NCBI GenBank assembly: GCA_001442985.1
Contig: LDYB01000019.1
Coordinates: 1-64,000, forward strand
DNA: 64,000 nucleotides
Reading direction: 5' to 3'
DNA from: Armatimonadetes bacterium DC
GTDB taxonomy: Bacteria; Armatimonadota; Fimbriimonadia; Fimbriimonadales; GBS-DC
The translations under genes and the position numbers were made by a program. Below are positions 6,127 to 60,327 of this stretch, in pieces; the first letter of the stretch is position 1, and each line of letters starts with the position of its first letter. Under the pieces are notes generated by a model that was not told where the DNA came from, made no database searches, and saw nothing but the letters and a program-made list of their open reading frames with translations.

Positions 6127-7248
6127 ACGCACCCCAGCAAACAGCGAGCTGCCCTTCGGCGTCAAAACCCCCGACACAAACAGCGTGCCTTGCTTATCGG
6201 AGCGCCAGAAATCCACGCCCAGCGCCAGCCGAAAGTCGCGTTCGGGGCTGTAAATCGCGCCGATTCGCAGAGTCGGCACGAGCAGATTGGGTTCGTTTGG
6301 GCTTACCTGCTGACCCGAAAAGCGCGCCTCCAGATAGCGTCGTATCATCCGAAACAGGGGGCGTTGCACCAGCCCGCCGCCGAAGTGCCCCGTGTTGAGC
6401 CAGAACACTTTCGGGTTGCCCAGCGCCCGCACGAGTTTTTCGGTGTCTTCGGTGGGCACGACGATATCGAAGCGCGCGCCAATCACGAAAGTTTTGGCAC
6501 CCAGCTCTGGTGAGAGCAGGTTCATCGGCTCCACAGGCGCGAGCGCCTCGCGCAGGCTGGCGAGCGTATAGCCCTGCGCCCGCAGGTTCAGCCGCGCCCG
6601 AATGCCCAGCACCGAGTGCCACAACACATGCGCCAGGTCCACGCCCCCCAGAATCAGCACCGCCGTATGAATGCGCGGCTCCACCCCCAGCACCACTGAA
6701 CCCAGAATTGCGCCCAGACTGATGCCCACCAGCCCAATCCGTTCGGGGTCAATTTCGGGGCGGCGCTGGAGCCAGTCTATCGCGCGTTTTGTGTCCCACA
6801 CTGCCTGCACCACTACCTCGCGCAAAATCTCCACATCGCCCTGCAACAGCAAATCGCCGCTGCCCGTGTTTGGCGGTGTACGCTCCATATGGTAGGGAAG
6901 AGTTAAAATCAACACACTGATGCCGTGTTTGACCAGTTCCCGCGCCAGCCCCATCTCCAGCTCAGGACGACGAATGCCCAGGCTGTGAAGCATCACGACG
7001 GCAGGCACGCGCCCCTGAAGCCCATCTGGAACCAGCCACCAGCCAACAACGCGATTGTTGGCGGGGTAGCGGCTCTCGTAGGCACTTGGGAACACGAGGC
7101 GATATTCGGTGTAGCCCTCGTAAGGGCGCACGCTCAAATAAGCGGAGGCGAACACGGGGTCTAACGGGGCAAACAGGCGCTCATCAGGCTGGGCAGAAAG
7201 GCTCCCCAGAAGCATCATTACTCCCAGCGCCCACACGGCTCTTCTCAT
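6046..7248 (-). CDS. Secreted alpha/beta hydrolase (dienelactone-hydrolase/acyl-esterase-like)
   Basis: This is 400 aa from ATG 7248, whose ATGA overlaps the stop of the small upstream gene. Signal peptide residues 1-20 end LSAQ. The hydrolase core shows VPAVVMLHSLG near residue 80, nucleophile elbow GISLGA near 175, acid in IGARFDIVVP near 260 and His in NTGHFGGG near 290. After about residue 320 a beta-rich tail follows (LLVPTLRIGAIYSPERDFRL, LFAGVRLRLGF) unusual for the family and reminiscent of an outer-membrane beta-barrel strand pair. The substrate is unknown. Confidence 0.75.
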   Translation of the reverse strand: MRRAVWALGVMMLLGSLSAQPDERLFAPLDPVFASAYLSVRPYEGYTEYRLVFPSAYESRYPANNRVVGWWLVPDGLQGRVPAVVMLHSLGIRRPELEMGLARELVKHGISVLILTLPYHMERTPPNTGSGDLLLQGDVEILREVVVQAVWDTKRAIDWLQRRPEIDPERIGLVGISLGAILGSVVLGVEPRIHTAVLILGGVDLAHVLWHSVLGIRARLNLRAQGYTLASLREALAPVEPMNLLSPELGAKTFVIGARFDIVVPTEDTEKLVRALGNPKVFWLNTGHFGGGLVQRPLFRMIRRYLEARFSGQQVSPNEPNLLVPTLRIGAIYSPERDFRLALGVDFWRSDKQGTLFVSGVLTPKGSSLFAGVRLRLGFSAGAEITPRRTTGAVFWHFVL

Positions 7249-7415
7249 GACGACCGCTCCCGCACCAGCGCCCATACGGTTAAGACCAGCAGGAGCGCGA
7301 ACAGGGCAGCGCCCGCTTTGTAGAGAGGGCTATCGGGCGTCAGCGTAACATCTGTGCCCAGCCAGCCCCCGTAGAGGGCTAAGCCAATCCAGCCGAGTGC
7401 GACGACGGTGCGCAT
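7245..7415 (-). CDS. Small two-helix membrane protein, 56 aa
   Basis: The gene starts inside the last 37 bases of aroKB (ATG 7415) and stops at 7245 with a TGA that overlaps the ATG of the following hydrolase. It encodes a first hydrophobic helix (MRTVVALGWIGLALYGGWLG), a short polar turn (TDVTLTPDSPLYKAG) and a second helix (LFALLLVLTVWAL) ending RERSS. Tight overlaps with both neighbours on the same strand and the clean two-helix pattern support translation. It may be a membrane microprotein; no function is suggested by sequence. Confidence 0.55.
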   Translation of the reverse strand: MRTVVALGWIGLALYGGWLGTDVTLTPDSPLYKAGAALFALLLVLTVWALVRERSS

Positions 7416-9022
7416 CGTCGGAGTGCCTCCAGAATCGCGTCAGCAGGGATATTCGGCACGAGTTCCGCCTCTCCCACCGCTTTCAGCAGAACGATATGGA
7501 ATTGCGCGCCGACGCGCTTTTTGTCGGCACGCATTGCTTCCAGCAGCGTTTCGGGAGCCACAGGGGGCAGGGCAACGGGCAGCCCCGCCTGCTGGAGGGT
7601 ATGCTTTAACTCGGCGAGGGTCTCCTCAGGAGTAATCCCCATCAGCACCCCAATCTGGGCTTCGGCGACCATGCCGGCGGCAATTGCCTCACCGTGCAGC
7701 CAGTCGCGATAGTTCAGGGCGCGTTCAATCGCGTGTCCAACCGTGTGCCCGAAGTTCAGCAGCGCCCGCAGCCCTTGTGTGTCGCGCTCGTCAGAGGAGA
7801 CCAGCTCGCTTTTAATCTGCACACAGCGTGCAATCGGCAGAAGCCAGCCGTCGGGCGTTTTACGCACACGGCGCGGCGTGAGCCAGCCTCCCGCCACCAT
7901 CGCTTTCAGCCGAAGCCATAGCCCCGAATGGAGCGCGATTCCGTACTTCAGCATCTCGGCAAAGCCGTTGCGCCAGTGTCGGGCAGGAAGCGTGGTCAGG
8001 ATTTCGGGGTCTATAAACACCGCTTGAGGCTGATAAAACGCGCCCACCAGATTCTTGCCTTCGGGCAAATCCACGCCCACCTTACCCCCAACGCTGGAAT
8101 CCACCTGCGCCAGCAGCGTGGTGGGAACCTGAAAGAACGGTATCCCGCGCATGTAGGTCGCCGCGACGAATCCGCCCATATCGCCCAGCACGCCGCCGCC
8201 CACCACAACCAGCCCGCTGTGGCGGTCTACCCCGCGCTGTGTCATCTCGCGATGAATCCGTTCCACCATGCGCAGGGTTTTGAATCGCTCGCCAGAGGGA
8301 ACATAGAGCGTGTGGGTGGGAATGCCCTGCTGATTCAGGGCGCTCGCAATTGGCTCCGCCCACTGCTGGAGAGGGGGATGGGAGAGAATCACAACTTGAG
8401 AGGGCTTTCCGAACTCGGCGAGGCGCTGGGGAAGGGCATGACGCAAACCACTCGCGAGGAACACGGTGTAAGCATGAGGTTGTCCTTCCAGCACGGGGAT
8501 AGTCAAGGGTGCATCGGGCGTGGGCTGGATAAGGCGAGCCAGCGGCTCGACAACCTGTTCAGGGGTTTTGCCGTCGGTGGGCAAAATCCAGTCCGCCTGC
8601 TGATAGAGTGCTTCACGCTGGGCGGCAATCGCCTGCAGTTTTTCAGCGGGGTCGGGCTGGAGCAGGGGGCGTGTGGTAGCGTCAGGAATCCGTGAAAGCA
8701 GGGTCTCTACAGAAGCTTTGAGATAAACAATCCAGCCGTGCTGGCGCATGACCTGACGGTTCGCTTCGCTCAGAATCGCGCCGCCACCGCAGGCAATCAC
8801 CGAAGGCGTGGGGTGGGCGGCAAGTTGCTTCAACAGATGCGCTTCCATCTCCCGAAATCGGGCTTCGCCTTCTTCGGCGAAAATCTGGGGAATGGTTTTA
8901 TGGGTTGTCTGCTCCACCACCAGATCCAGGTCAAAAAAAGGTCGCCCCAGCCTGCGGGCAAGCAGTGCGCCGACCGTGCTCTTGCCCGCGCCCATATTGC
9001 CCACCAGAAACAGATGCCTCAT
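7379..9022 (-). CDS. aroKB: Bifunctional shikimate kinase / 3-dehydroquinate synthase fusion
   Basis: This is 547 aa. Residues 1-170 are shikimate kinase: P-loop GNMGAGKST, DLDLVVE, FREME and CGGGA. Residues about 185-535 are 3-dehydroquinate synthase: NAD-binding GGGVLGDMGGF, substrate region VDSSVGGKVGVD, and metal ligands in GFAEMLKYGI, NFGHTVGHAIE and WLHGEAIAAGM. The two activities are steps 2 and 5 of the cytoplasmic shikimate pathway to chorismate. The fusion keeps all catalytic motifs. A terminator separates it from pilQ upstream, so it has its own promoter. Confidence 0.95.
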   Translation of the reverse strand: MRHLFLVGNMGAGKSTVGALLARRLGRPFFDLDLVVEQTTHKTIPQIFAEEGEARFREMEAHLLKQLAAHPTPSVIACGGGAILSEANRQVMRQHGWIVYLKASVETLLSRIPDATTRPLLQPDPAEKLQAIAAQREALYQQADWILPTDGKTPEQVVEPLARLIQPTPDAPLTIPVLEGQPHAYTVFLASGLRHALPQRLAEFGKPSQVVILSHPPLQQWAEPIASALNQQGIPTHTLYVPSGERFKTLRMVERIHREMTQRGVDRHSGLVVVGGGVLGDMGGFVAATYMRGIPFFQVPTTLLAQVDSSVGGKVGVDLPEGKNLVGAFYQPQAVFIDPEILTTLPARHWRNGFAEMLKYGIALHSGLWLRLKAMVAGGWLTPRRVRKTPDGWLLPIARCVQIKSELVSSDERDTQGLRALLNFGHTVGHAIERALNYRDWLHGEAIAAGMVAEAQIGVLMGITPEETLAELKHTLQQAGLPVALPPVAPETLLEAMRADKKRVGAQFHIVLLKAVGEAELVPNIPADAILEALRRCAPSSHSAGLA

Positions 9023-9030
9023 CGGGAATC

Positions 9031-9061
9031 AAAACTGCAGGGGCATTCTCTGCCCCTGCAG
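9031..9061 (-). terminator. Intrinsic terminator after pilQ
   Basis: An 11-bp perfect stem (CTGCAGGGGCA / TGCCCCTGCAG, 9035-9045 with 9051-9061) with a 5-nt loop is followed on the minus strand by TTTTG. It lies between the end of pilQ (9090) and the start of aroKB (9022), closing the pilus operon. Confidence 0.85.
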
Positions 9062-9089
9062 CGATCTGGTATCACGAACAGGGTGGATG

Positions 9090-10709
9090 TCAGGGCGCCA
9101 GCCCTGTGCCTGTGGAATCGTCCTCAATCACGGTCGCCGTCACGAAGATAAGCAGTTCGCTCTCCACCAGCGAACGGTCTTTCTTGCGGAAGAATTGCCC
9201 AATTAAGGGCAGGTCCGCCAGAATGGGGATGCGCACCTGCTGGGAGTCTTCCTGACGGGCGACCAGACCGCCCAGTACGATAGTCTCACCGTTTTTCACA
9301 CGGCGCACGGTCAGCACGGTCTGGAAGGTAGAGCGTGGCAGGTCTTGAGTCCCCACGCGCACGCGCTCGGTGGTGGTGAGCGTCGGGATGAGGCTCAGGG
9401 TGATGGTGCCATCGGCGTTCACGCGCGGAACCACGCTCAGGAACGAAGGAATTAGAATCGGGAACGGCTGCGAGAAGGTGGTTGGCTGACCCTGCGCGTT
9501 GAACACGACGAACTCCTGCAGAATCCAGTCCTGCACGGTGATGCTGACCGAGGCGGGCATGTTGTTCTGCGTGGTGATGATGGGAGCGTTAATCACGCGC
9601 CCGCGCCCGCGGGTCAGCTGGGAGCGCATGTTCGCCACGAGGTTGCCCGAAGCGTAGTTGACGAACACAGGCGCCGCCCGGTCTGCCAGCCCCGAAGCGC
9701 CCGCGGTCAGGTTCACCCGCGCCAGATTCCAGTCAATACCGAACTTGTCGATTTCGTTGCGGCTGACGGTCACGAACTCGGCGCGAATCAGCACCTGTTT
9801 CGGGGCGATATCCAGGAAGCGCAGGATCTGGCGGATATATTCAATCGCTTCGGGGCGCCCACGCACGATGATGGAGTTATCGATATCGTTGGCGACGATA
9901 CCGTCCAGTCCTTCGTGCTGGAAGATGCTCACCGCGCCGCCTGCGCCTGCTCCCGGCTGCCCGCCGCCACCGGGCTGTCCGCCGAAGCCGCCCGGCTGTC
10001 CCCCGAAACCGCCCGGTTGTCCGAAGCCGCCGAAGCCGCCGCGACCGCGCCCGCCGATGCCCTGTCCTTCGCCGCTATCCATCGGAGTGGCAGGGTTTAC
10101 AGGCGTTGCGGTGGGCACAGGCGCGCTGTTGTACGGCACGACGGTGCCGTTCTCGATGCGCAGCGGCACGCTGGGCTGGACGCCCGGCATCGTCGTCTGC
10201 AGTTGATGGCGTGCGGTGGTTTCCAGAAACTCACGCAGTTCGGCGAACGGGTCGGGCGTCATCATCTCGTTCTGGATGATGCGCACGATGTCCGACGCGC
10301 GGGAATACTTCAGCGGGATGCGCTCCACCACCACAACTGGTGGCGCAGGCGGCTGGGGGGCAGGCGCCGCCTGTGGGGCAGGCTTCTCTTCTGCAGGGCG
10401 CTGCGGACCGATGATGTAGACCCCTTTTTCTTTCCGATACGAGGCGCCTGCCGCCTGACAAATCAGACCGAGCGCTTCCTCAAAAGGGCGCTTCTCTATC
10501 TTGACGAAGCCGACACGCTTGTAGGGCTGATCGGTTGGCTCGAAGACGACCTCTGCATTCACCTGCTGGGCAATCATTTTGACCGCCGTAATCAGGTCAG
10601 CGTCCATCAGGTGAATGGTAACCTGATAGTCGTCGCTCGCCCAGACCATCGTCGCCAGTGTCAGTGTGGTCAGCGAGAAAATCAGTTTGCGTCCGATTCC
10701 TTTTCTCAT
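9090..10709 (-). CDS. pilQ: Type IV pilus secretin PilQ
   Basis: This is 539 aa from ATG 10709, preceded by GGAGGAACACACTG. A signal peptide (about 1-24) precedes a secretin/TonB N-terminal (STN) domain at about 28-100 (VTIHLMDADLITAVKMIAQQ). A short N1-like segment follows (PLKYSRASDIVRIIQNEM), then a Gly/Gln/Pro-rich linker at about 210-260 with GGFGGQPGG repeats. The C-terminal secretin beta-barrel at about 270-530 contains VLIRAEFVTVSRNEIDKFGI, the VPRVNADGTITLSLIPT gate region and GETIVLGGL. It should form the outer-membrane channel for the pilus. It is the last gene of pilM-N-O-P-STN-pilQ. Confidence 0.92.
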   Translation of the reverse strand: MRKGIGRKLIFSLTTLTLATMVWASDDYQVTIHLMDADLITAVKMIAQQVNAEVVFEPTDQPYKRVGFVKIEKRPFEEALGLICQAAGASYRKEKGVYIIGPQRPAEEKPAPQAAPAPQPPAPPVVVVERIPLKYSRASDIVRIIQNEMMTPDPFAELREFLETTARHQLQTTMPGVQPSVPLRIENGTVVPYNSAPVPTATPVNPATPMDSGEGQGIGGRGRGGFGGFGQPGGFGGQPGGFGGQPGGGGQPGAGAGGAVSIFQHEGLDGIVANDIDNSIIVRGRPEAIEYIRQILRFLDIAPKQVLIRAEFVTVSRNEIDKFGIDWNLARVNLTAGASGLADRAAPVFVNYASGNLVANMRSQLTRGRGRVINAPIITTQNNMPASVSITVQDWILQEFVVFNAQGQPTTFSQPFPILIPSFLSVVPRVNADGTITLSLIPTLTTTERVRVGTQDLPRSTFQTVLTVRRVKNGETIVLGGLVARQEDSQQVRIPILADLPLIGQFFRKKDRSLVESELLIFVTATVIEDDSTGTGLAP

Positions 10710-28788: not shown

Positions 28789-29664
28789 TCATCGCTCCCT
28801 GTAGGTCATCTGGACATCGCGCAGCCATCCCTGACTGATCTCAGGGTCCCAGATAGCGTCCAGCTCGGGAGTAAATCGGTAGTAGTGGCGCCACGGAAGC
28901 ACGGAATCCGCCTCACGCCGCGCTTCCAGTCTATCGCGAATCAACTGGACATAGGCAGGGTCAATCTCAATTGCAACACAGTGGCGTCCCAGCTGCTCTG
29001 CTACCACCGCTGTCGTGCCTGTGCCTGCGAAGGGATCCAGAACCCAGTCGTCTGGCTTAGTGGAAGAGAGTAGAATCCGCAGCAACAGAGCGACAGGCGA
29101 CTGCTGTTTATGGAGGCGCTCTCCGCGTGCGCCCCTTAGCGCCTCATCCCCGGCAAAGTAGCCTGAGGTCAGCTCGCGAATATCGCTCCAGCAGTCAGTT
29201 ACGAACACTCCGTTTTCACGAGGATACCTGTGATAGGGTTCGGGAGGGAGGTCTATCCGCAGCCGATAGAACACGCGTGGGCGTCGTCCTTTCGTGGCAA
29301 AGGCAATAATCTGATACTGCTTACCAAAGCGACTGAAACCGGGCACTGCAGAGGTTTTTTTGAGCCAGATAATCAGGTTCTGGAGCGTCCAGCCTGTTTC
29401 GCGCAGAGTGCGTAGTACGAACTCCGCATTCTTCTCGCGCTGCATAAAATAGATTGCGCCTCCCTCTTCGGTACACTCGTAAACCTTCTGACACACCTGA
29501 CTCAGCCATTCCCAGTAGAGAGGCTCTGGTTGGTCGTCGTCAAAGTAGGCATAGTCTTTGCCCTGGTTGAAGGGTGGGTCTAAGAAGGTCAGGGCTATCG
29601 GGATGCCCTGCTCGCGTATCGTGTCCAGTGCCTGTAAGCAGTCGCCTTGAATCAGGTGAACCAT
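28789..29664 (-). CDS. Orphan DNA adenine/cytosine-N4 methyltransferase (beta class order)
   Basis: This is 291 aa. Motif IV TFLDPPFNQG is near residue 32 and motif I DPFAGTGTTAVVAEQLGRHC near residue 212; the order IV before I defines the beta class of amino-methyltransferases. IYFMQREKNAEFVLRTLRE lies between. No restriction gene is adjacent, so it may be a solitary regulator or the relic of a lost R-M system. After the TGA the same frame stays open for 33 more codons with protein-like content (28690-28788), so the C-terminus may have been shortened by mutation. Confidence 0.85.
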   Translation of the reverse strand: MVHLIQGDCLQALDTIREQGIPIALTFLDPPFNQGKDYAYFDDDQPEPLYWEWLSQVCQKVYECTEEGGAIYFMQREKNAEFVLRTLRETGWTLQNLIIWLKKTSAVPGFSRFGKQYQIIAFATKGRRPRVFYRLRIDLPPEPYHRYPRENGVFVTDCWSDIRELTSGYFAGDEALRGARGERLHKQQSPVALLLRILLSSTKPDDWVLDPFAGTGTTAVVAEQLGRHCVAIEIDPAYVQLIRDRLEARREADSVLPWRHYYRFTPELDAIWDPEISQGWLRDVQMTYRER

Positions 29665-29715: not shown

Positions 29716-30342
29716 TTAGAGCATCAAAACCCGACGAACCGCCTCCACCAGCAGGTGGAAGCTCGTGCCCACCACAAACGCCAGCACCAGCGCAATCAGG
29801 TTGCCCGCCGCAAGGAAGTAGGCGTCATGGTTCATTAGCCCGATGCCGATGAGCAACACCCCCAGCGCAGGCAGGGTGTTCAGAAAGGGCAGGGGCGAGG
29901 AAAGCACAAGCGCCATAAAAATCACCAGCAGGGCGTGCCAGCGGAGCATGAAGCCGTTGCGCACCAGCCACCTGCCACGGGGACGGGAGATGCGCTCCAG
30001 CTGGCGCAGGATAGCAACCCCGCGCGTTTACAGTGCCATCACCGTTTGCGGCGCAAGCCGATGGCGCCGCCAGCGTGCGGGCAGCCAGGGCACCGCGCGC
30101 CCCCAGAGCATCTGCAACGCAATCAGGCTCATGAGAAGCCCCAGTATTGTGGAAGTGCCGGGCGGCAGCACCGGGATAAACGCCGGAATTGCGAGCAGGA
30201 TAAGCAGAAAACCGTACCCCCGGTCTCCAGCCCTCTGAAGTACCTCGTCTACGGAGACCGTGCCGTCGGCGTCGGTGTCCAGAACTCCGAGAAACAGCTC
30301 CGAGAGGCGTTCTTGGGAGGGCTTCATTCTGGGTCGCGCCAT
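29716..30342 (-). pseudogene. exoD-like membrane protein gene interrupted by an in-frame TAA
   Basis: From ATG 30342 the frame encodes an ExoD-family N-terminal half (RLSELFLGVLDTDADGTVSV, DRGYGFLLILLAIPAFIPVL), reaches TAA at 30028-30030 and continues in the same frame to 29716 with the second half (VAILRQLERISRPRGRWLV, then SPLPFLNTLPALGVLLIGIG). Both halves align with one roughly 200-aa ExoD protein, whose role in exopolysaccharide synthesis is poorly defined. A GTG at 29964 could restart the second half, but there is no sign of an adapted ribosome site. It overlaps the ispG end by 19 nt. Confidence 0.8.
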
Positions 30343-32345
30343 ACGCCGTCGGCTTTGAGCAGGGCGATTAACTCTTCCACGCCGCGCTCCGCAGGGATGT
30401 CGTTTTTGACCAGTTGCCCCTTGCGATAGAGCGCAATCTTCCCGCCGCCGCGCCCCACATAGCCATAATCAGCGTCTGCCATCTCACCCGGACCATTAAC
30501 GATGCAGTTATGCACCACACAGAGCGAACCTGTGTAGGTATGTGCGTGCGCCACCTCCAGATTATGAACCACTCCGCGATAGGGCAGGCGCCTCACCTCT
30601 ACAACGGGCAGGTAGAGGTAGTGCGAATCGAGGGCGAGTCGCCCCGTGCGCTGGCGGCTCTCAGGCACCTCCACTTTGAATCCGAGGCAGTCCGCAAACC
30701 GCCGTAGAGCATCACTGCTGGTGACGCTAATAATGTAAGTGCGCTGTCGGTTGGCAGGCTGCTTGACCGCCAGGGACGCTGGAATGCCCAGACGCAGCAG
30801 CATCTGGTGAACCGCAAACGCCAGAGCGGGGGAGACCGTTACATAAGTCGCTCGCGGGTAGCCACGAACGACTCCGCAATACCCATCACAGAGCCAGAGG
30901 GTGCGGAGGAATTCGGCTATGTGTTTTGGCTCGTCTGGAACGCGCTCTGGGAGCTGATTTGCCTGCAGAACAGGATAAAGCAGCACATGGTCGCGCGTGA
31001 TGGCTTCTGCCGCGTACCAGCGTGCTTCCTGCCAGCGGTTGGCGAGGTCTGCGACATTTTGCCAGCGCGTGCGTCCCCCTTTGACTATGCTGGAACGGGT
31101 GAGCGCCAGCACCGGATGATTGGGCGTCAGGCGCAGGGGTGGCGCCCCGCGTGGCACAATCTCTATGAGTTCACCTTCGAACGAATGCGTCTCTATCGCC
31201 GAAACGGGTTCCAGCGTGCCGCGTTCCGTTAGTACGCGCTCGCCAACCCGAACTGAGGCGATGGGCTTCAACCCCGATTCGGTCATCACGGGCTGGTCAG
31301 GAGGCAAGCAGCCCATCACCGCGATATCCAGTCCCACCAGGTGTTTGGTGGCTTCGCGGACCTGGTTCAGCACGGTGGGCAGGTCAAACTTGGTGCGCCC
31401 GCAGGAGGGGCAGGCGATGTATTCCACCTTTGTTTTGCGCAACCCAAGCGCCTGCAGAATGTCGTAGCAGACCTCAATTTCGTTCACGGGGTCTTCCGCC
31501 AGCGAGACGCGAATCGTGTCGCCAATTCCCTCCGCCAGCAGGGTTCCAATCCCGATTGCGCTTTTGATTCGCGCGTACATGCCATCGCCTGCCTCGGTTA
31601 CGCCCAGATGGAGCGGATAGTCCATCCCTTCCTCTTCCATGCGCTGTACCATCAGGCGGTTGGCGGAGAGCATAATCGGCACGCGGCTGGCTTTGAGCGA
31701 AATCACGAGGTCTTTGAAGCCGTGCGCCTCACAGATTTTGATGTATTCCATCGCCGACTCCACCATGCCCTGTGGGGAGTCGCCGTACATCACTTTAATG
31801 CGTTCGGAGAGGGAGCCGTGATTGACCCCGATGCGCATGGCGACACCGCGCTCTTTGCAGGCGCGAATCACAGGCAGGAGCGCCTTCTCGATCGCTTCCA
31901 GCTCCTGCTGAATCTCGCTGGGCGAATATTCTGTGCGGGTGGGATCAGGCTTGCGGAACACAAACAGCCCCGGGTTGATGCGTACCTTGTCTACATGCTT
32001 GGTGCATTCGAGGGCAATTTCCATGCCCTGGTGATGCACATCGGCGACGAGGGGGATGTGTCCGTAGCCGCGCCGTTTGAGTTCGGCACGGATTTCGCCG
32101 AGGTTTTGCGCTTCGCGCAGGTTGGGCGCCGTAACGCGCACAATCTCCGCCCCTGCCTCGTAGAGCTGGATAATCTGCTCCACCGCCGCAGGGGTGTTCA
32201 TCGTCTCGGCGGTAATCATCGATTGCACGCGAACGGGGTTGGAGCCACCAATCGCGGTGGAGCCCACCCGTACTTCGCGCGTGCGCCTTCGGGGCTTACT
32301 GAGAGGCAACTGCACTGCGCCCAGCGGAATGATGTTCTTCGCCAT
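30324..32345 (-). CDS. ispG: 4-hydroxy-3-methylbut-2-enyl diphosphate synthase precursor containing an intein
   Basis: This is 673 aa from ATG 32345; the frame extends upstream, but a GGTATAAT box 9 nt before this ATG sets the start. N-extein residues 1-345 and C-extein 60 residues make a 405-aa IspG (GcpE) of normal size. The TIM-barrel part shows [41 protein letters not shown] and [10 protein letters not shown]. The cluster domain has [12 protein letters not shown] and, across the intein, [19 protein letters not shown]. It catalyses the penultimate step of the MEP isoprenoid pathway with a [4Fe-4S] cluster. The enzyme is expected to be essential, so splicing should be needed. Confidence 0.95.
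30507..31310 (-). mobile_element. Intein (268 aa) inside IspG
   Basis: The intein begins at Cys after AVMG (block [21 protein letters not shown] with RVGERVL). Block B has [12 protein letters not shown] with the catalytic TxxH. The C-terminal blocks are [19 protein letters not shown] and final VVHN; the +1 residue is the extein Cys of CIVNGPGE. Removing it restores [12 protein letters not shown] exactly. The middle carries one degenerate LAGLIDADG-like stretch ([13 protein letters not shown]) plus [20 protein letters not shown], as in DOD homing endonucleases. No second motif is visible, so the nuclease is probably inactive. At 268 aa it is between a mini-intein and a full one. Confidence 0.95.
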
Positions 32346-32354
32346 CGCGATAGA

Positions 32355-32360
32355 ATTATA
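32355..32360 (-). promoter_or_regulatory. -10-like box (GGTATAAT), 9 nt before the ispG ATG
   Basis: The minus strand reads CAGGTATAATTCTATCGCGATGG. No ribosome site is present, suggesting a leaderless ispG mRNA. The box lies just past the end of the GHL10 gene (stop at 32375). Confidence 0.55.
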
Positions 32361-32374
32361 CCTGCGAGGCGCCT

Positions 32375-34024
32375 TCAGTACGGCGCTATCACCCCTCGCA
32401 GGCTTTTCAGCAGCGAGGGCAGCTGGTGGGGGGCAAGCGGGGTCTCGGCGCGGTCGGCACGCAGGGCGCGCCGAATCGGCTCCCACCAGTCCCAGCTCAC
32501 GATGTGGTAAGCGTCAAAAATCATCACGCCATTCGAGCTGAGACACGCGGCGCGGATGGCGCGTTCAAACCCCGCAGGGTCGCGACGGTAGTCCTCGGCA
32601 TAGACCCCCGCGTACACAAACATTTCGCCGTTTGTCCACTGCATCACGCGCCGCGCCATGCCTTCTACGGTGCGCACCTCGTCGCCGTCGTAGAGCGCCG
32701 CCTCGTTCATAAAGGGGATGTTGAAGTAAGTGCCTGGCATCAGGTAGTCCATATCGTACACATAGGAGGTGAAGCGGTATTCCTCGCCCACGAAGCCGTA
32801 AGGGCGCTCCAGCGCGTCGCTCGCCCAGTTGACCCCCAGCTCGTAATAGATCGGGTACCAGCTGCCCACATACGCGCCGATGGGCATCGGGCGAATCGAC
32901 TCAATGGTTTGCCGAATCTCGCGCAACAGGTCGCGAATCACGCGGGCGCGAAACTCGCTCCACTGTCCGAAGCGGGGTCCGCGCTCGAATCCGTCGCGGG
33001 GCAAAACGGGCGGGCGCAGGATGTCGTCGGGGAAGTTCTGCACGGGACCATAGAGCGCCTCAAAAGCGCGGCGCGTGCGCTCGGAAAAGTCGGTATAGAC
33101 ATTCGCCCAGCGCATTCGGTCCAGCACAAAGCCGTCTATCGGGTAGTTCGTGCAGATTTCGCGAATAATCGCCATCAGCCGCTGGCGCACCTCGGGATGG
33201 AGAGGATTCACAAATACCGCAATCCCTTCGGTGTCCGATTCGGCAATTGGCGTCAGCACGGGGTAGGTCTCCAGCCGTAGCTGCATGCCCAGTTCGGCAA
33301 GGCGCTCTAATTTCTCGCTTGCAGTGCCGTCAGCCACCAGCACCCAGCCGTTGGGCGGCGGCTGAATCGGCTGGTTCACGAACATGCCGTCAATTACGGC
33401 TTCCACGCGCAGGTCGTCGGTTAAAATCGCATACGCCCAGTTGCGCCCTGCGGGCGGCACAGGCGCGGGGTTGCGCCGATAGGCGGCAATCCCATTCGTG
33501 GGCGGGGTGGTATCAAAGCGGTTCAGCTCGTAGGGCGTGCCGTCGGGCAGGCTCAAAATCCGCCGACGCGAATACGCCACCATCTGCCAGTCCACATTCT
33601 CATAAGCAGGACCAGTCTGGAACATCTTGTGCCCTTCGGAAAGCACATTGATGTTGGCATGCACTTCCAGCCCGACGGCGTGCGCTTCCTCCAGAAACAC
33701 CTGCAGGATGTCCATCTCTTCGGGCACGCGCACGCCGCGCCACTCGGTGAGTTTAGGTGCAATCTTGCTGTGATACAGCACATGCCCACTGATGGGCTTC
33801 ACATCCAGCACAATCGTGTTGATGCCGACGGACTTGCAGTTTTGCACGAACTCCCGAATCTTTTCGCGGTCAATCAGCCAGAACAGGTTCGCGGTGGCGT
33901 CCACCCACATCACACGCCCTTCCAGACCCATCTGGCGGGTGAGCGCTACAGAAGGGGGCAACGGTTGAGGGCAGAGCACGCTGATCAGGGTTGTCAAGCC
34001 GAGAAGCACACCAAGCCGACGCAT
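32375..34024 (-). CDS. Secreted GHL10/family 10-like glycosyl hydrolase
   Basis: This is 549 aa from ATG 34024 with a signal peptide (about 1-22). The TIM-barrel features of the GHL10 (DUF187-like) group are present: [75 protein letters not shown] and [20 protein letters not shown]. The family acts on polysaccharides; in some members the target is peptidoglycan-related glycans. The acid pair probably includes the Asp of LDRMRW. It is transcribed toward ispG, with only a 29-bp gap. Confidence 0.8.
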
Positions 34025-53789: not shown

Positions 53790-53800
53790 TAAAGCAAGTT

Positions 53801-54472
53801 ATGGAGATTGTACCTGGGCTGGAGTACGGTGTCTATTCCTATGCAGAGGCGGCGCGCTTGTTGGGGATTACCCCTCAGCGTCTCAAGCGTTGGGCAGATG
53901 GGTACTTCTATGAGCGTCGGGACGGGCAGAGATACTCTGCGCCTGTGCTACGCGCACATGCCCACCGAGAGGGCGTTCTTACTTTCCCTGAGCTGATTGA
54001 ACTTTTCTTTGTGCGCGAGTTTGTCGCGCTGGGTGTCCCACTACCGCACATTCGTAAAACCGCCGATGCCCTGGAGCACGAGGTAGGCGAGTTCCCCTTC
54101 TCACGCAGGCAAGTACTGGTCGAGGGGCGCAGGCTGCTGGTGCGCGAAGCGGAAGGCTTGCTCAAGCGCCCCGACATCGGGCAGCTGGTGGCAGACTTCG
54201 CCGAGCAGTTTGCCCAGCATATCGAGTTTGACGGTGACCTCGCGACGCGCTATTACCCACAGGGCTACAATCGGCAGGTGTTTTTGGATCGTCGGATTCG
54301 CGGTGGCGAGCCAGTAGTCGCTGTCAATGGGCGCGCCATCCCGACGCGAATCATCTTCGCCCTGTGGCAACGCGAGAAGAATCCAGAGTCTGTGGCGGAC
54401 TATTTCGAGATTCCCCTGTCAGCAGTCTCTGCGGCTATTCGATATGAGGGCGAATGGCGTCTCAGCGCGTGA
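53801..54472 (+). CDS. DUF433-type antitoxin with MerR-like N-terminus
   Basis: This is 223 aa. The N-terminal HTH resembles MerR (YSYAEAARLLGITPQRLKRW). Residues about 60-165 form a helical linker. The C-terminal DUF433 domain reads FLDRRIRGGEPVVAVNGRAI, PTRIIFALWQREKNPESVAD, YFEIPLSAVSAAIRYE. DUF433 proteins pair with DUF5615 PIN-like toxins, exactly as here: the toxin gene overlaps by 19 nt. The protein probably represses its own promoter through the HTH. Confidence 0.85.
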   Translation: MEIVPGLEYGVYSYAEAARLLGITPQRLKRWADGYFYERRDGQRYSAPVLRAHAHREGVLTFPELIELFFVREFVALGVPLPHIRKTADALEHEVGEFPFSRRQVLVEGRRLLVREAEGLLKRPDIGQLVADFAEQFAQHIEFDGDLATRYYPQGYNRQVFLDRRIRGGEPVVAVNGRAIPTRIIFALWQREKNPESVADYFEIPLSAVSAAIRYEGEWRLSA

Positions 54473-54852
54473 AGTTGTTATTCGACGAGAATATCTCGAG
54501 GCGTCTGGTGGAGTTCGTCAATCGCGAATCGGCGCTGGCAGAGATGGCGCATCTGACTCAGCGTGGCTGGGGTGGACTTCCAGACCGCGATTGGATTGCC
54601 CGTGCCACTGAGCGCGGGTTTGTTATTGTATCAGGCGACCGCAACGAACGGACTCGAGGCTACACGGTTGCAGACTTGAAAGAGATGCAGGCGCGTGTTC
54701 TCCTGTTGGCACGCTTCTGGGATCACCTCAGTCGGTGGGAGCGTGCAAAATGGCTGGTTGCCCACATAGAGCGTCTTGTGGAAGTTGCTCAACAAATGCC
54801 GACTGGGAGCGTGTATCTGATTTACAAGAGGGGGCGCTGTAGGGTTCTCTGA
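54454..54852 (+). CDS. DUF5615 PIN-like toxin
   Basis: This is 132 aa. KLLFDENISRRLVEFVNRES carries the first acidic pair (DEN), GLPDRDWIARATERGFVIVS the second, and GDRNERTRGY the third, the spacing of the DUF5615/Mut7-C PIN-like nuclease family. Overlap with the DUF433 gene supports a type II toxin-antitoxin pair. Confidence 0.85.
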   Translation: MASQRVKLLFDENISRRLVEFVNRESALAEMAHLTQRGWGGLPDRDWIARATERGFVIVSGDRNERTRGYTVADLKEMQARVLLLARFWDHLSRWERAKWLVAHIERLVEVAQQMPTGSVYLIYKRGRCRVL

Positions 54853-54891: not shown

Positions 54892-55413
54892 ATGCCAGAG
54901 GAGATTACCCGCGCGAAACACGGAGACCAGCCCGAAGACTTTCGTATGCCCGAAGACGCCGAACCCGAAACACTGGAAGCGTTGCCCGAACAGGAAGAGT
55001 TCTGGCGTCCGCCCGTGCGCTTTGGCTCCATCCCGGTGGAAAAGGAGCCGTTGGGGTGGGACCGCAAGAAGGGCTTCGAGAAACTCTTCCCGCGTGTCAA
55101 GCTACCCTTCCAGATTGTGGAGCGTGTCTCCTTCGGCAATCGCGAGCTGGAGCCAAACCGCCTCATCTGGGGCGACAACCTGCATGTGATGCGCCAGCTC
55201 CCCAGCGAGAGCATCGATTTGATTTACATTGACCCGCCCTTCTTTTCGGGCAGGCAGTATAACATCATCTTCGGCGACCAGAACGAGGTGCGCTCGTTTT
55301 CGGACATCTGGGAGGGCGGCATGCCAGGCTACCTCATCTGGCTGAACGCCCGCCTGTACGAAATGAAGCGCCTGCTCAAAAAGACGGGCAGCATCTATGT
55401 CCACTGCGACTGA
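54892..55413 (+). CDS. mod: Type III-like Mod methyltransferase, N-terminal part, ended by an in-frame TGA
   Basis: This is 173 aa from ATG 54892. It shows PNRLIWGDNLHVMRQLPSES and catalytic motif IV IDLIYIDPPFFSGRQYNI, as in beta-class N6-adenine Mod subunits. It ends ...GSIYVHCD-TGA, while the same frame continues HASHYIKVEMDKIFG. Family members read 'VHxDWHxSHYVK', so TGA replaces the conserved Trp codon. The N-terminal fragment lacks the SAM-binding motif. The gene is either a nonsense pseudogene or produces two chains; see the next entry. Confidence 0.8.
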   Translation: MPEEITRAKHGDQPEDFRMPEDAEPETLEALPEQEEFWRPPVRFGSIPVEKEPLGWDRKKGFEKLFPRVKLPFQIVERVSFGNRELEPNRLIWGDNLHVMRQLPSESIDLIYIDPPFFSGRQYNIIFGDQNEVRSFSDIWEGGMPGYLIWLNARLYEMKRLLKKTGSIYVHCD

Positions 55414-55434
55414 CACGCCAGCCACTACATCAAG

Positions 55435-56685
55435 GTGGAGATGGATAAGATTTTCGGGTATGAGAACTTAATTAATGAAGTAATATGGTACTATAGATCA
55501 GGTGGAGGCTCAAAACGACATTTTGGTAGGAAGCATGATACCCTGCTTTTCTATGCAAAGGATAAAAGTAGGTATCTCTTTTACCCCGATGCTGTACGCG
55601 TGCCTTATGACGCTGTGATTGCTGATTCGCGAAAGCACCTATTCAACGTGCAGGGCAAAGTTTCACCCGATGTCTGGGATATTTCGCGTCCTCCCAATCA
55701 CAGTAAAGAGTGGCTCGGATATCCTACGCAAAAACCTGAAGCGCTGATTGAGAGGGTTATCCAGAGTGCCACAAAAGAGGGCGATGTAGTCGCCGACTTT
55801 TTCTGTGGTGGGGGCACGACGCCTGCGGTGGCGCAGCGGCTGGGGCGGCGGTGGATTGCGTGCGACCAGTCGCGCGTGGCGGTCGCTGTTACCGCCGACC
55901 GGCTGATTCGCGGCGCCCAGCAGCTCACCACCGACCTGCAGATACCCGACTTCACCATTGAATACTGGGGCGTCTATGAAGCACGGAGGCTAACCCGTAT
56001 GCCCGCCGAGCAGTTTCGGGAGTTTATCCTGCGCTGTTTCGGGGCGCGCCCTTCAGAGGAGCATGCAAACATTCACGGCTACAAGGGCGTCGTGCCGGTG
56101 TGGGTGGGCAGTCCGCAAGCAGATCAGCCCGTGACGCCCCAGGAGGTGCTGGCGTTTGCGAACGCGGTGCGCCGCACGCCGCGCTACCAGCAGGGAAGCC
56201 TGCGCGAGGGGATTATGCTGGCGTGGGCGTTCAGCCCCGAAGCCCGCGACGCCGCCGAAAAACTGCGCTCGCAGGAGCAGGTGAATGTCAACTTCATTCG
56301 GCTGGATCTGATTCGCATCGACTCGCCCCAGTTTCGTCGCCATGTCGCCGAACTGTCCACCGATCACGCCGATTATGAAAACTTTCTGACCTTCGTGCAG
56401 CCGCCGCGCGTGGAGGTGGGCTACCAGCGGATTGCGCCGCTGACCTACAAGTTCGATGTGAGCGACACGGTGGTGGTCAACCCCAACGCAAAGATTCTGA
56501 ATGTGCAGTGGGACTTTGACTATGACGGGCGCCATTTTCGCAGCACGCAGGGCTACGCGCTCGCGAAAGCGTCGGAGCCTGTGGTCTACAAGTTCCCCCG
56601 CCCAGGCGTCTACACCATCGCCTGCAAAGTGCAGGATGATAAGGGTGGGGAAGGGGTGTGGGTTGGGGAGGTTAAGGTAGAATAA
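55435..56685 (+). CDS. mod: Type III-like Mod methyltransferase, C-terminal part after the in-frame stop
   Basis: This is 416 aa if started at GTG 55435 (ATG at 55441 also possible), 19-25 nt after the TGA and in the same frame. It includes EVIWYYRSGGGSKRHFGRKH, the TRD region, HSKEWLGYPTQKPEALIERV and SAM motif I DVVADFFCGGGTTPAVAQRL. The C-terminus has a PKD-like sandwich (VQWDFDYDGRHFRSTQGYAL, YKFPRPGVYTIACKVQDDKG). Reinitiation could give a split enzyme, motif IV on one chain and motif I on the other, but no ribosome site stands out. The intact remainder implies the stop is recent. Confidence 0.8.
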   Translation: MEMDKIFGYENLINEVIWYYRSGGGSKRHFGRKHDTLLFYAKDKSRYLFYPDAVRVPYDAVIADSRKHLFNVQGKVSPDVWDISRPPNHSKEWLGYPTQKPEALIERVIQSATKEGDVVADFFCGGGTTPAVAQRLGRRWIACDQSRVAVAVTADRLIRGAQQLTTDLQIPDFTIEYWGVYEARRLTRMPAEQFREFILRCFGARPSEEHANIHGYKGVVPVWVGSPQADQPVTPQEVLAFANAVRRTPRYQQGSLREGIMLAWAFSPEARDAAEKLRSQEQVNVNFIRLDLIRIDSPQFRRHVAELSTDHADYENFLTFVQPPRVEVGYQRIAPLTYKFDVSDTVVVNPNAKILNVQWDFDYDGRHFRSTQGYALAKASEPVVYKFPRPGVYTIACKVQDDKGGEGVWVGEVKVE

Positions 56686-56690
56686 AAGCG

Positions 56691-57476
56691 ATGCATATTC
56701 TGCGGGTGCGGATCGGCGAGACGGGACACCACCCAGACCTGCGAGCAGTGCAGCGGCTTGCGGAGCGTCTGCGCAGGGCGCTGAACGCGCTTCACGAAGA
56801 AATTACCGAATCCGATACCCGCCCAACTTTCGAGATCGTCGAGGCGTCCACAGGGAGTTTACAACTGGGGATTGTCCCCAGTGAGTCGGGAGTAGCACCT
56901 GTTCTATTTCGCCAGTTCAGGGAGGACCTGGAAATGCTCCGCAATGGGCAGTTTCGCCCCACGATGAGCAGTCAGACGCTGGCGGAGTATAGGGAGTTAT
57001 TCAAAGCGCCATCCCAAACCGTGCCTGTGTATTATGTGTATGGGGAGCAAGAAACCGTTATTGACGAGTTCGCACGCCGGCTGCTGGAAGAGAAGATTGT
57101 TCGCACACGCGCCTATGATGTCTCTTTTATCGGCACGATTGAGAGTATTAACATCCATCAGCGACCTTATTCATGTGCGCTCTTCACGAAGCTCGCGCCC
57201 CCGCAGCGTATCCCGTGCGTTTTCGAGGATGCCCTGATTGCGCCGATTGCCGAGGCACTGCGGAGCCGTCAGATTGTTGAGGTGGTCGGCGATGCCGAGT
57301 ACGGTCCTGTGGGCATCTACCCTCTCAAGCTCACTATCAAACATCCACCAAAGCTTGCCTTACCCAACAAAGAGTTTCTGAGACAGGTCATCCATAGCGT
57401 AGACATTTTGCCTGAAGGCTATACAATCGTTGAATATCTGGACGAGTTGAGGCAAAAGGATGAGGAAACGGCGTAG
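56691..57476 (+). CDS. Unknown protein coupled to a PIN-domain gene, candidate antitoxin
   Basis: This is 261 aa. No recognised domain. The N-terminal half is helical (LRAVQRLAERLRRALNALHE). The second half has strands such as TVPVYYVYGEQETVIDEFAR, AYDVSFIGTIESINIHQRPY and QIVEVVGDAEYGPVGIYPLK that suggest one compact alpha/beta or beta domain. It starts 5 nt after mod and its end overlaps the PIN gene by 17 nt. By position it could neutralise the PIN nuclease or belong to the restriction complex; the sequence does not decide. Confidence 0.7.
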   Translation: MHILRVRIGETGHHPDLRAVQRLAERLRRALNALHEEITESDTRPTFEIVEASTGSLQLGIVPSESGVAPVLFRQFREDLEMLRNGQFRPTMSSQTLAEYRELFKAPSQTVPVYYVYGEQETVIDEFARRLLEEKIVRTRAYDVSFIGTIESINIHQRPYSCALFTKLAPPQRIPCVFEDALIAPIAEALRSRQIVEVVGDAEYGPVGIYPLKLTIKHPPKLALPNKEFLRQVIHSVDILPEGYTIVEYLDELRQKDEETA

Positions 57477-57942
57477 GACGCGCCCGCGAATCTACTGGGA
57501 TACGAGCTGCTTTATTGCTCTGCTGGAACGCAAACCTACGGAAGACCCGCAGCTTGTCAGAGCGCTTGAGCAGAAGTATCACGAAATGCTATCGGGGCAG
57601 GTAGAAATCGTCTCTTGCTCTGTGTTGATTACGGAATTGTTAGGCGAGCCAGCGAAGCGTTTTCTGGACGAACTGCGCAAGTACCCCACTTTCGAGATGA
57701 TAGAAACGGTCAGCCCCGTCTATGAACTGGCGCGTTCTCTGCGGGAGCGATGTAAGCAGCAAGGTGTTCATAAGCTCAAGACGCCTGATGCGCTCCATCT
57801 GGCAGCGGGTATACTCAGTAAGTCCGACGAATTCTGGACCCTGGATAAGAGGCTTCTCAACGCTGGCTCGGTCATCACGGAGGTTAAGATATGTTTGCCA
57901 TACATAGAGCAGGCAACGCTTGATTTAGAATTTGAGCCATGA
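57460..57942 (+). CDS. PIN-domain (VapC-like) ribonuclease inside the R-M operon
   Basis: This is 160 aa. PIN acidic residues appear in order: IYWDTSCFIALL (Asp), CSVLITELLG (Glu), LKTPDALHLAAGI (Asp) and EFWTLDKRLL (Asp). It lies between an unknown gene (17-nt overlap upstream) and the res helicase (ATGA overlap downstream), so it is translated as part of the restriction operon. VapC-type PIN toxins cut tRNA or rRNA; the target here is unknown. Confidence 0.88.
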   Translation: MRKRRRTRPRIYWDTSCFIALLERKPTEDPQLVRALEQKYHEMLSGQVEIVSCSVLITELLGEPAKRFLDELRKYPTFEMIETVSPVYELARSLRERCKQQGVHKLKTPDALHLAAGILSKSDEFWTLDKRLLNAGSVITEVKICLPYIEQATLDLEFEP

Positions 57943-59990
57943 TTGCTGTGAGGGAGTCCAGTATGTTCAACCGCTTCATACCCTATGAGCAGGATTTTGA
58001 GATATGGCGGCGCAGTGGCTACCCTGGCGTCTCCGAGGAGACCTATCGCTACATCGACTTTTTGACTGACCCCAGCGACGACCAGTCGCCGCGCGAAGGC
58101 ACGCTCTGGCGACACCAGTGGGAGGCGTTCCTGCGGGTGATTTACTGCCACGAGGTGCTGGGCAAGGAGCAGATCGGCAAGCAGGGGCTGTTGCTGAACA
58201 TCGTGACAGGCGGCGGCAAAACCGCGCTGATGGCGGCGATTATCGCATGGCTCCGCGTTGCGCACGACGTCCATAAGTTCGTCGTGTTGTGTCCCAATCT
58301 GATTGTGCGCGACCGCCTGGAAGCCGATTTTGAAGGGGGCAGGATTTTTCGAGAGCGCCAGCTTATCCCCGACTGGGCGGACTGCAAACCCGAAGATTTC
58401 GTGCTGACCACGCTGGGCGGCGGCAAAGGGGGCGGCGGCTGGGCGAACCTGTTCAGCTCCAATATCATTCTGGGCAATATCCACCAGTTTTACACCAGCA
58501 ATAAGAGTGGGCAGAGCAACCTTTCCGCCCTGTTGAACGGACCCGACTTCGTGCTGTTCAACGATGAGGCGCATAATTCCCCAGCGCCTGAATGGGACGC
58601 CACGCTCCAGCGCCTGGCGTTCAAAACAAAGCTCCGAATTGACCTGACCGCCACGCCCGAACGCGCCGATGGACAGACGCCCGACAGCGACCTGATTTAC
58701 GAATACTCGATTCAGGACGCCCTCGCCGACGGGCTGGTCAAAACGCCTGTGGTCTATCAGCCCAGTATCCAGATGGTGGAGCTGACCTATACCGACGCCC
58801 GCACGGGCGAACGCCGCCGCGTGGAAGAGATTGACTGGGAAGAGGTGGATCGGCTGGGGCTGACGGCGACTCAGTGGGTCACGGACGACGAGCCGATGCG
58901 CCAGCAGATGGCGATTGCCCTCCAGCGTCTCAAGGAGCAGGAGCAACGCGCGAAGGGACGCTACCAGCCTATTCTGTTCGTGGTGGCGGTGTGTAAAGCA
59001 GACGCGGAAAAGGCGGCGCAAACATTAAATCACTATTTCAAAGTCAAAACGCTGCTGGTGACCGAAGACAGCGACGAAGAGGAGCGACGCAAAGCGCATG
59101 AGCTGGGCAAGGCGCTCCGTTCTGGCAACCCCTATAAGGCAGTGGTGAGCGTCCTGATGCTTCGTGAAGGATGGGATGTACCCGAAGTGGGGGTGATTCT
59201 GCTCCTGCGCAAGTTCAGCAGCAAAGTGTACGGGCAGCAGGTGATAGGGCGCGGGCTGCGGCGTGTGCGCCTGCCCAGCGTTGCGCCCGAAGAACCCCAG
59301 ATTTGCGCGATTGTGGATCACCCCAAGCTTGAGCATCAGTGGCTCTGGGACATCTTCAACGCCAAAAAGCGCGAGAATGTTTCTATAGACGACCTGTTTG
59401 ATGAGACTGAAGACCTGCCGCCGCCGCTGCCCAGGCAGGAACTGACCAAGCCGCACCTTGTGATTGCCATCCCGCCCGAACTGCCGTGCTACGAAGACGA
59501 GGAGTTTGTAGTAGAGGTTCAATCACGCACGGCGGAACCGCGCGCCGACTGGAAGCAGCTACTGGAGAGCATCGAGTATCACGACGAGGGCGTAGAGATT
59601 ACGCGCGTGGATATTCGAAGCGTTCAGGGACGCGAGCTGGGCGCCGAGAAATGGCGTTCCAGCCAGGCGCCGCCTGAAATCCACGAAAGCCCAACGCCTT
59701 ACACGCCACGCCCAACCGAAGACCAGCTGCGCGACATGATTAAAGCGCGCCTGCTGGAAATTGCCGAAGAGCTGGTCGACGAGGCAGGGTACGCGCCTAT
59801 TCTCTATAAAGATAAGGTCTACAGCGCGTTACTCCATCACATTCGCGCGAAGTTTCTTGGAGGGAAATCGCTGGGCATGTGCGAGCGCGAGGAGCTGGAA
59901 TATGCGTGGCGCATGCTTCCCCAGGTCAAAGAGCGAGTACGCAACATCCCTGGACTGATTGGAGGGATTGTGAAGTATGGCGATCAGTAA
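57939..59990 (+). CDS. res: Type III restriction-like Res subunit: superfamily 2 helicase without nuclease domain
   Basis: This is 683 aa; ATG 57939 overlaps the PIN stop, and ATG 57963 with GGGAG before it is equally plausible. Helicase motifs: LLLNIVTGGGKTALMAAIIA (Walker A), VLFNDEAHNSPAPEWD (DEAH), RIDLTATPERADGQ, VSVLMLREGWDVPEVGVILL and YGQQVIGRGLRRVRLP (motif VI). It ends in helices (YAWRMLPQVKERVRNIPGLI) where canonical Res proteins of roughly 900-1000 aa go on to a PD-(D/E)XK nuclease. Here that nuclease is the next gene. Confidence 0.9.
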   Translation: MIAVRESSMFNRFIPYEQDFEIWRRSGYPGVSEETYRYIDFLTDPSDDQSPREGTLWRHQWEAFLRVIYCHEVLGKEQIGKQGLLLNIVTGGGKTALMAAIIAWLRVAHDVHKFVVLCPNLIVRDRLEADFEGGRIFRERQLIPDWADCKPEDFVLTTLGGGKGGGGWANLFSSNIILGNIHQFYTSNKSGQSNLSALLNGPDFVLFNDEAHNSPAPEWDATLQRLAFKTKLRIDLTATPERADGQTPDSDLIYEYSIQDALADGLVKTPVVYQPSIQMVELTYTDARTGERRRVEEIDWEEVDRLGLTATQWVTDDEPMRQQMAIALQRLKEQEQRAKGRYQPILFVVAVCKADAEKAAQTLNHYFKVKTLLVTEDSDEEERRKAHELGKALRSGNPYKAVVSVLMLREGWDVPEVGVILLLRKFSSKVYGQQVIGRGLRRVRLPSVAPEEPQICAIVDHPKLEHQWLWDIFNAKKRENVSIDDLFDETEDLPPPLPRQELTKPHLVIAIPPELPCYEDEEFVVEVQSRTAEPRADWKQLLESIEYHDEGVEITRVDIRSVQGRELGAEKWRSSQAPPEIHESPTPYTPRPTEDQLRDMIKARLLEIAEELVDEAGYAPILYKDKVYSALLHHIRAKFLGGKSLGMCEREELEYAWRMLPQVKERVRNIPGLIGGIVKYGDQ

Positions 59991-60327
59991 GCGCGGAATC
60001 TTTCAGAACCCCACCAAAAGCCCCTGGAACTTCGAACGCTACGAGAGCGAGCTGGAGCGGCGCATGATGGAGCGCCTTGAGAAAGACCCTGCTGTCGCCA
60101 AATGGATGAAGCGCCACTCCATCAGCATCGCCTGGGTCGACTCGCAGAATCGACAGCGGCGCTATGTGCCCGACTTTCTGGTGGAATACACGGATGGTCA
60201 GATTGCGCTGATAGAGGTGAAAGACCCCAGCCGCATGGAGAGCGACGATGTGAAGCGCAAGCGCTCTGCTGCCGAACGATGGTGTAAACGGCGCGGGATG
60301 AAATATGTTCTCTACACGCTTGATTAG
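59977..60327 (+). CDS. Stand-alone PD-(D/E)XK nuclease (TnsA-like) of the restriction system
   Basis: This is 116 aa, overlapping res by 14 nt with GGAGGG before the ATG. KSPWNFERYESELERRMMER is followed by RRYVPDFLVEYTDGQIALIE and VKDPSRMESDD, giving the nuclease core E...PD...E-x-K seen in TnsA-type and type III Res nuclease domains. KRKRSAAERWCKRRGMKYVL provides the last helix and strand. It is likely the DNA-cutting partner of the helicase upstream. Confidence 0.87.
   Translation: MAISKRGIFQNPTKSPWNFERYESELERRMMERLEKDPAVAKWMKRHSISIAWVDSQNRQRRYVPDFLVEYTDGQIALIEVKDPSRMESDDVKRKRSAAERWCKRRGMKYVLYTLD

Follow-up and report, generated by a model that had tools for sequence, protein, structure and literature searches.

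The window, the whole stretch of 64,000 nucleotides analysed here from Armatimonadetes bacterium DC, encodes a restriction-modification (R-M) operon in a run of seven co-oriented genes on the + strand. We lean, if narrowly, towards reading it as a three-subunit type III-like system (Mod, a helicase Res and a separate PD-(D/E)XK nuclease) in which the junction between mod and res is an exchangeable slot that holds defence modules. In the window this slot is occupied by a gene for a 261-aa protein and a gene for a PIN nuclease, which, judging by sequence and structure prediction, most likely form a self-contained VapBC-type toxin-antitoxin system serving as abortive backup or as retention cargo.

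Table 1. Genes and features of the operon, with positions in the window.
Feature	Position	Strand	Basis
DUF433-HTH (COG2442-like), predicted antitoxin of the upstream pair	53799-54472	+	Pfam HTH_66 5.9e-9; DUF433 3.5e-4, under cut-off
DUF5615/PIN_10, predicted toxin of the upstream pair	54454-54852	+	Pfam PIN_10 2.9e-9, DUF5615 2.1e-8
mod, beta-class N6/N4 DNA methyltransferase, nonsense-interrupted	54892-56685	+	Pfam N6_N4_Mtase 6.3e-33 in C part
In-frame TGA within mod	55411-55413	+	Translation and codon comparison with relatives
261-aa gene, proposed antitoxin	56691-57476	+	No Pfam/NCBIfam family; AlphaFold2 model
PIN nuclease gene (160 aa), proposed toxin	57460-57942	+	Pfam PIN 2.2e-8
res, ResIII/SF2 helicase without a nuclease domain of its own (683 aa)	57939-59990	+	Pfam ResIII 3.8e-18
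Separate TnsA_N-like PD-(D/E)XK nuclease (116 aa)	59977-60327	+	Pfam Tn7_TnsA-like_N 2.1e-14

The genes are tightly packed. A gap of 5 nt separates mod from the 261-aa gene, and the genes that follow overlap by 17 nt (261-aa/PIN), 4 nt (PIN/res) and 14 nt (res/nuclease). The coordinates and Pfam matches bear out the gene order, the gaps and overlaps, and the DUF433/DUF5615 pair ahead of mod, all of which had been described in an earlier sequence-only reading of this DNA. The order stands, but mod is not one open frame, its in-frame TGA having been missed in that reading. A search of other genomes, which the same reading had proposed, found the order mod-261-PIN-res-nuclease again in an Armatimonadota genome of a different family (G089), and the arrangement is therefore more than chance.

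Classical type III R-M systems consist of just mod and res. The earlier reading measured the operon against this rule, which is right for the classical systems and fails here, where the nuclease is a third core gene in every relative. We compared 11 further loci of the window's res family, 64-84% identical to the window res. Seven come from genomes of Armatimonadota, whether of the window's own family or of another (G267, G275, G277, G261, G268, G089 and G187), one is truncated (G263), and three are IMG/VR contigs (V029, V030 and V031, equal to L029, L030 and L031); most of the compared genomes are drafts, and no member of the family was found in plasmids. In all 11 loci a small nuclease gene follows res (the G261 sequence ends inside it), so a separate nuclease is the norm for this subfamily and not a peculiarity of the window.

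The Walker A and DEAH motifs of res are invariant in 11 loci, its conserved start is the ATG at 57963 (relatives share an M(F/L/Y)N start), and mod ends in the same C-terminal motif wherever both mod and res are available. The nuclease matches the C-terminal part of the fused REase_III model (3.4e-10). The operon thus shares with type III R-M and BPTD_3080-like enzymes a beta-class Mod with a variable target recognition domain (TRD), a ResIII helicase and a PD-(D/E)XK nuclease. Unlike classical type III systems, in which the nuclease is fused to res, the window and all relatives tested have helicase and nuclease as separate, overlapping genes, the nuclease being a small protein of its own. Against the BPTD_3080 model (NF046055), res scores 98.4 bits and the nuclease 41.7 bits, where the cut-off is 800 bits.

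The mod|res junction is empty in four relatives (G187, V029, V030 and V031), where the mod stop and the res start lie 3-5 nt apart. It is filled in seven loci, the window (G000) included, by four unrelated gene pairs. The 261-aa/PIN pair occupies it in the window and G089, and a DUF433/DUF5615 pair in G267 and G275. G261 has an HD domain protein and a DarG-C-like protein, the latter named for its match to the C-terminal domain of the DarG antitoxin; G268, whose junction runs into a contig edge, has the same DarG-like gene before res and the end of an HD-like frame. In G277 the slot holds TcmP/DUF5131, matching the PADLOC models PDC-M41A (2.6e-100) and PDC-M41B (2e-122). A toxin-antitoxin character seems likely for three of these modules (the two PIN pairs and the HD/DarG-C-like pair), and the fourth is a PADLOC defence candidate. 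All of the pairs are co-directional, and the ends of mod and res are intact. The res|nuclease boundary has no inserted pair in any locus where it is readable; pairs do sit immediately ahead of mod, namely DUF433/DUF5615 in the window and 261-aa/PIN in G261. Because the same spot is empty or holds unrelated defence pairs in relatives, it looks like a socket into which suicide or backup-defence modules can be plugged and exchanged; the known filled slots are all within one phylum.

The res phylogeny indicates how quickly the contents change. V029, with an empty slot, and G089, with 261-aa/PIN, are sisters (85% identical, support 100/100), and G268, with the DarG-C-like gene, is sister to the DUF433/DUF5615-bearing G267 and G275 (res 85% identical, 100/100). 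Since sister loci differ in slot content, the cassettes turn over faster than the operon that carries them. The 261-aa/PIN state alone requires at least two separate changes on the tree, the pair having entered at least twice. The exchange also speaks against an altogether different role for the two genes, as working restriction subunits that combine, for example, DNA sensing by an OB fold with an extra nuclease. The genes do lie within the operon, and the predicted OB fold of the 261-aa protein (below) resembles nucleic-acid binders of the SSB/PriB type; but close relatives of the mod-res-nuclease core have no such genes or have unrelated ones, and we regard this role as very improbable.

What, then, are the two proteins? 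The 261-aa protein belongs to no Pfam or NCBIfam family. From 16 family members AlphaFold2 gave a confident model of it (mean pLDDT 86.9), predicted to comprise an alpha/beta domain at the N terminus followed by an OB fold (residues ~139-226). SSB, PriB and proteins like them can be aligned to this OB fold at Z 8-9.6 (VIA re-ranking, with the N-terminal half barely covered), and a Foldseek search of the model against the PDB returned nothing at E <= 0.001. Such a fold is small and common and does not by itself reveal what the protein does. The PIN model (mean pLDDT 87.2) has its best matches among VapC toxins (6.3e-6), with 41 matches at <=1e-3, and residues D14, E59 and D110 are invariant in 13 aligned members. 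By its predicted structure, the slot PIN is VapC-like with its acidic residues intact. Its partner resembles none of the known antitoxins in sequence, is larger than a typical VapB and is not of the small DNA-binding VapB kind. Distant 261-like relatives match the PDC-M32A/B models weakly (2e-4 to 0.02, with PDC-M32A down to 2e-4), and the window's own 261-aa and PIN proteins match no PDC model of PADLOC.

A profile of the 261-aa family identified 25 places in 21 of 397 genomes. About 100 of the genomes searched are outside the phylum, and the only match there is a weak one (G323). A scan of genome contigs with a narrow pattern recovered just the known loci and carries no weight on whether the phylum is the limit. 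A weak-scoring match in a type I R-M locus with no PIN gene (G009) was excluded from the counts, and two of the 25 places stop at contig edges, leaving 23 that are testable. In every one of the 23 a PIN gene lies downstream of the 261-aa family gene, within a few bases or overlapping. No such pair was found in plasmids, phages or IMG/VR contigs. Methylation-based defence genes surround or adjoin seven of the 23, in operons of four kinds: at the mod-res operon (G000, G089 and G261), beside a methylase (G064, and G279 with a truncated methylase), beside HsdM and DUF1016 (G136), and, for the distant copy of G323, with a DUF1156 methylase on one side and a DUF499 ATPase on the other. The last locus, which also has helicase C-terminal and DUF1016 genes, resembles the Hma system. 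On its contig (L149, 5935-13929), the DUF1156 methylase carries an N-terminal NADAR domain and is followed by the 261-like/PIN pair and then the DUF499 ATPase, with DUF1016 upstream.

So, does the pair belong to restriction at all? The sequence-only reading had reasoned that a pair found mostly elsewhere, away from res, would be a chance insertion, and the outcome is mixed: set against the seven places inside or beside an R-M or Hma gene, the other 16 of the 23 neighbourhoods contain no such gene (translated flanks judged by reading, not by profile search). The link to R-M may therefore be opportunistic. Selfish toxin-antitoxin pairs could settle wherever a defence region tolerates them, mod|res being no more than one such site and functionally unrelated to its occupants, which would also suit the decay of several pair copies and the DUF433/DUF5615 homologues in G273 and G277 C18, with no mod in the stretch examined. 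However, such hitchhiking does not readily explain why one exact junction is repeatedly filled by four unrelated co-directional pairs that leave the ends of mod and res intact, why the PIN gene occurs twice in the window's own family (f1, 18 genomes) and both times at the mod-res operon, or why the seven defence-associated copies span four kinds of operon. We consider it possible but rather unlikely. Similarly tentative is a bolder proposal, that the 261-aa/PIN pair is an undescribed toxin-antitoxin family with a preference for defence operons built on methylation, be they type III-like, type I, methylase-nuclease or Hma, and that mod|res is a dedicated docking site where lineages exchange suicide modules as a backup of restriction against phage anti-restriction.

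The window mod itself is interrupted. Codon 55411-55413 is TGA in the window and TGG (Trp) in nine of the nine relatives compared; it falls inside HCD-W-HASHY, where the relatives read HC/LD-W-HA. It follows that the window mod is broken in this assembly or that the base is erroneous, the TGA possibly being an assembly error. The window genome probably has no working restriction from this operon. An alternative genetic code is unnecessary, given TGG in the relatives and the use of TGA to terminate the PIN and DUF433 genes of the same operon, and no repeat tract that would suggest phase variation via simple repeats is visible around the stop.

The organization of mod is that of a beta-class enzyme, with motif IV (DPPF) followed by the TRD and then motif I (FCGGG). 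Its TRD is hypervariable, with a mean pairwise identity of 36% compared to 87% before and 69% after it, as expected for a Mod with changing specificity. The TRD portion of mod (55440-55740) has a lower G+C content than the gene overall (0.435 and 0.579), suggesting an imported specificity. In the IMG/VR contig L030 (3413-7996) three genes, one of them transposase-like (read as IS1595-like), split the TRD region of mod, and the mod|res junction is still empty. A second, small N6/N4-type DNA methyltransferase (291 aa, with DPPF) is encoded 25 kb from mod on the - strand of the window (28789-29664) and is 27% identical to it. Near it, on the same strand (30324-32486), an IspG-like (4-hydroxy-3-methylbut-2-enyl diphosphate synthase) frame apparently has an intein-like insertion of ~280 aa between VMGC and [15 protein letters not shown]; the insertion starts [26 protein letters not shown] and ends VVHNC.

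The broken mod bears on how the PIN nuclease might be controlled. The sequence-only reading saw in the PIN pair either an abortive-infection arm or an addiction guard that kills the cell if restriction genes fail. A toxin-antitoxin-like arm in an R-M operon is favoured by the VapC-like PIN, the recurrence of the pair and the other pairs at the junction; the guard fits poorly, as mod has a nonsense codon and yet PIN is intact. Much the same applies to a PrrC-like guard, in which the Mod/Res complex would silence PIN and release it when phages inhibit restriction or an R-M gene is lost. A precedent is well established in PrrC, which lies within the hsd locus of EcoprrI (PMC3506569); R-M loci repeatedly contain toxins, and the pair is packed tightly between mod and res. 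But a strict guard should not survive beside a broken mod, so the intact PIN speaks against a guard with Mod as its sole brake. Moreover, PIN always has its own partner and is mostly found without any mod or res. A guard of this type appears improbable to us.

Patterns of decay point to the partner instead. In the G261 operon, mod (TAA) and PIN (TGA, codon 9) have nonsense codons, and the 261-like gene, res and the HD/DarG-C genes are open; on contig L054, mod is at 7629-9473 and PIN at 7135-7599. Elsewhere, PIN is truncated and its partner intact in G171, and both are broken in G067, PIN by truncation. The partner gene of G059 was considered as a further broken copy and rejected, its TGA being the natural stop. 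Among the family's places there is no case of a broken 261-aa partner beside an intact PIN. This one-sided decay, seen at the sequence level in three cases only, fits what a toxin-antitoxin system predicts.

We therefore favour, as the most likely reading, a VapBC-like pair with its own brake. In the working model, different two-gene modules would enter and leave the mod|res slot with mod and res undamaged, probably riding the operon transcript. In healthy cells of the window's organism, the 261-aa OB-fold protein, as proposed antitoxin, would restrain the VapC-like PIN RNase, the proposed toxin; Mod and Res would not be the inhibitor. Upon phage attack or loss of the operon, the level of the labile partner may drop, and the freed PIN could then cleave RNA and stop translation, either aborting the infection or killing cells that have lost the island. 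What the sequences show is the gene order, the slot and its swaps, the pairing, the predicted folds and the stop codon; toxin and antitoxin roles, transcription together with mod and res, the trigger and the abortive or retention function are inferred from there.

The pair ahead of mod recalls the PIN-COG2442 pairs, a prediction of 2009 since borne out for one pair, which works as a toxin-antitoxin (PMC2701414, PMC3834315). The window's PIN_10/DUF5615 protein is above the Pfam cut-off and has the DUF433 protein directly upstream, giving the PIN-COG2442 arrangement, with the DUF433 match at 20.8 bits against a cut-off of 23.6; the G267 homologue passes at 29.3 bits. The window's DUF5615 protein shares 72% identity with those in the slots of G267 and G275. 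The operon thus shares with VapBC and PIN-COG2442 systems (PMC2701414, PMC3834315) this upstream pair and the VapC-like predicted fold of the slot PIN. Unlike those systems, the slot pair's partner is a predicted alpha/beta and OB-fold protein, not a small DNA-binding VapB.

That toxin-antitoxins are embedded in R-M operons is already known from PrrC, DarTG2 and guilt-by-embedding. In the literature open to search we found no description of a fixed mod|res slot with four alternative modules or of the OB-fold partner family. The loci amount to a natural experiment, since close relatives combine the same conserved restriction core and the same fixed junction with any of four interchangeable modules or with none; it can thereby be tested directly if restriction benefits from an embedded toxin pair or the pair simply rides along. 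The 261-aa family, moreover, suggests that VapC-like toxins have a kind of partner not yet annotated.

A 2012 survey, which took PrrC as its model, described toxin genes in immunity loci, R-M of types I and III among them, and noted that such loci usually lack typical antitoxins (PMC3506569); each predicted toxin here is, in contrast, paired with a partner. Like PrrC in EcoprrI (PMC3506569), the PIN protein would be an RNA-cleaving suicide enzyme within an R-M locus, its cleavage being predicted. PrrC, however, is an ABC ATPase-HEPN anticodon nuclease that lacks an antitoxin gene and is kept silent by the R-M complex, whereas here a 160-aa PIN protein without an ATPase has its own partner. According to its citation in PMC12988326, a 2024 preprint by Payne obtained the HEC and PDC candidates of PADLOC through guilt-by-embedding; our loci share with them the nesting of defence genes in defence operons, TcmP/DUF5131 of G277 being PDC-M41. 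Similar again is the RptR-DarTG2-type I R-M island of EPEC, where a toxin-antitoxin pair lies between R-M subunit genes; the DarTG2 site between hsdS and hsdR was called a potential recombination hotspot, and other genomes have another gene pair there (PMC12255303). The EPEC site is a type I hsdS|hsdR junction with DarTG2, while the junction described here is type III-like mod|res with PIN pairs, and one of its cassettes includes a DarG-C-like protein.
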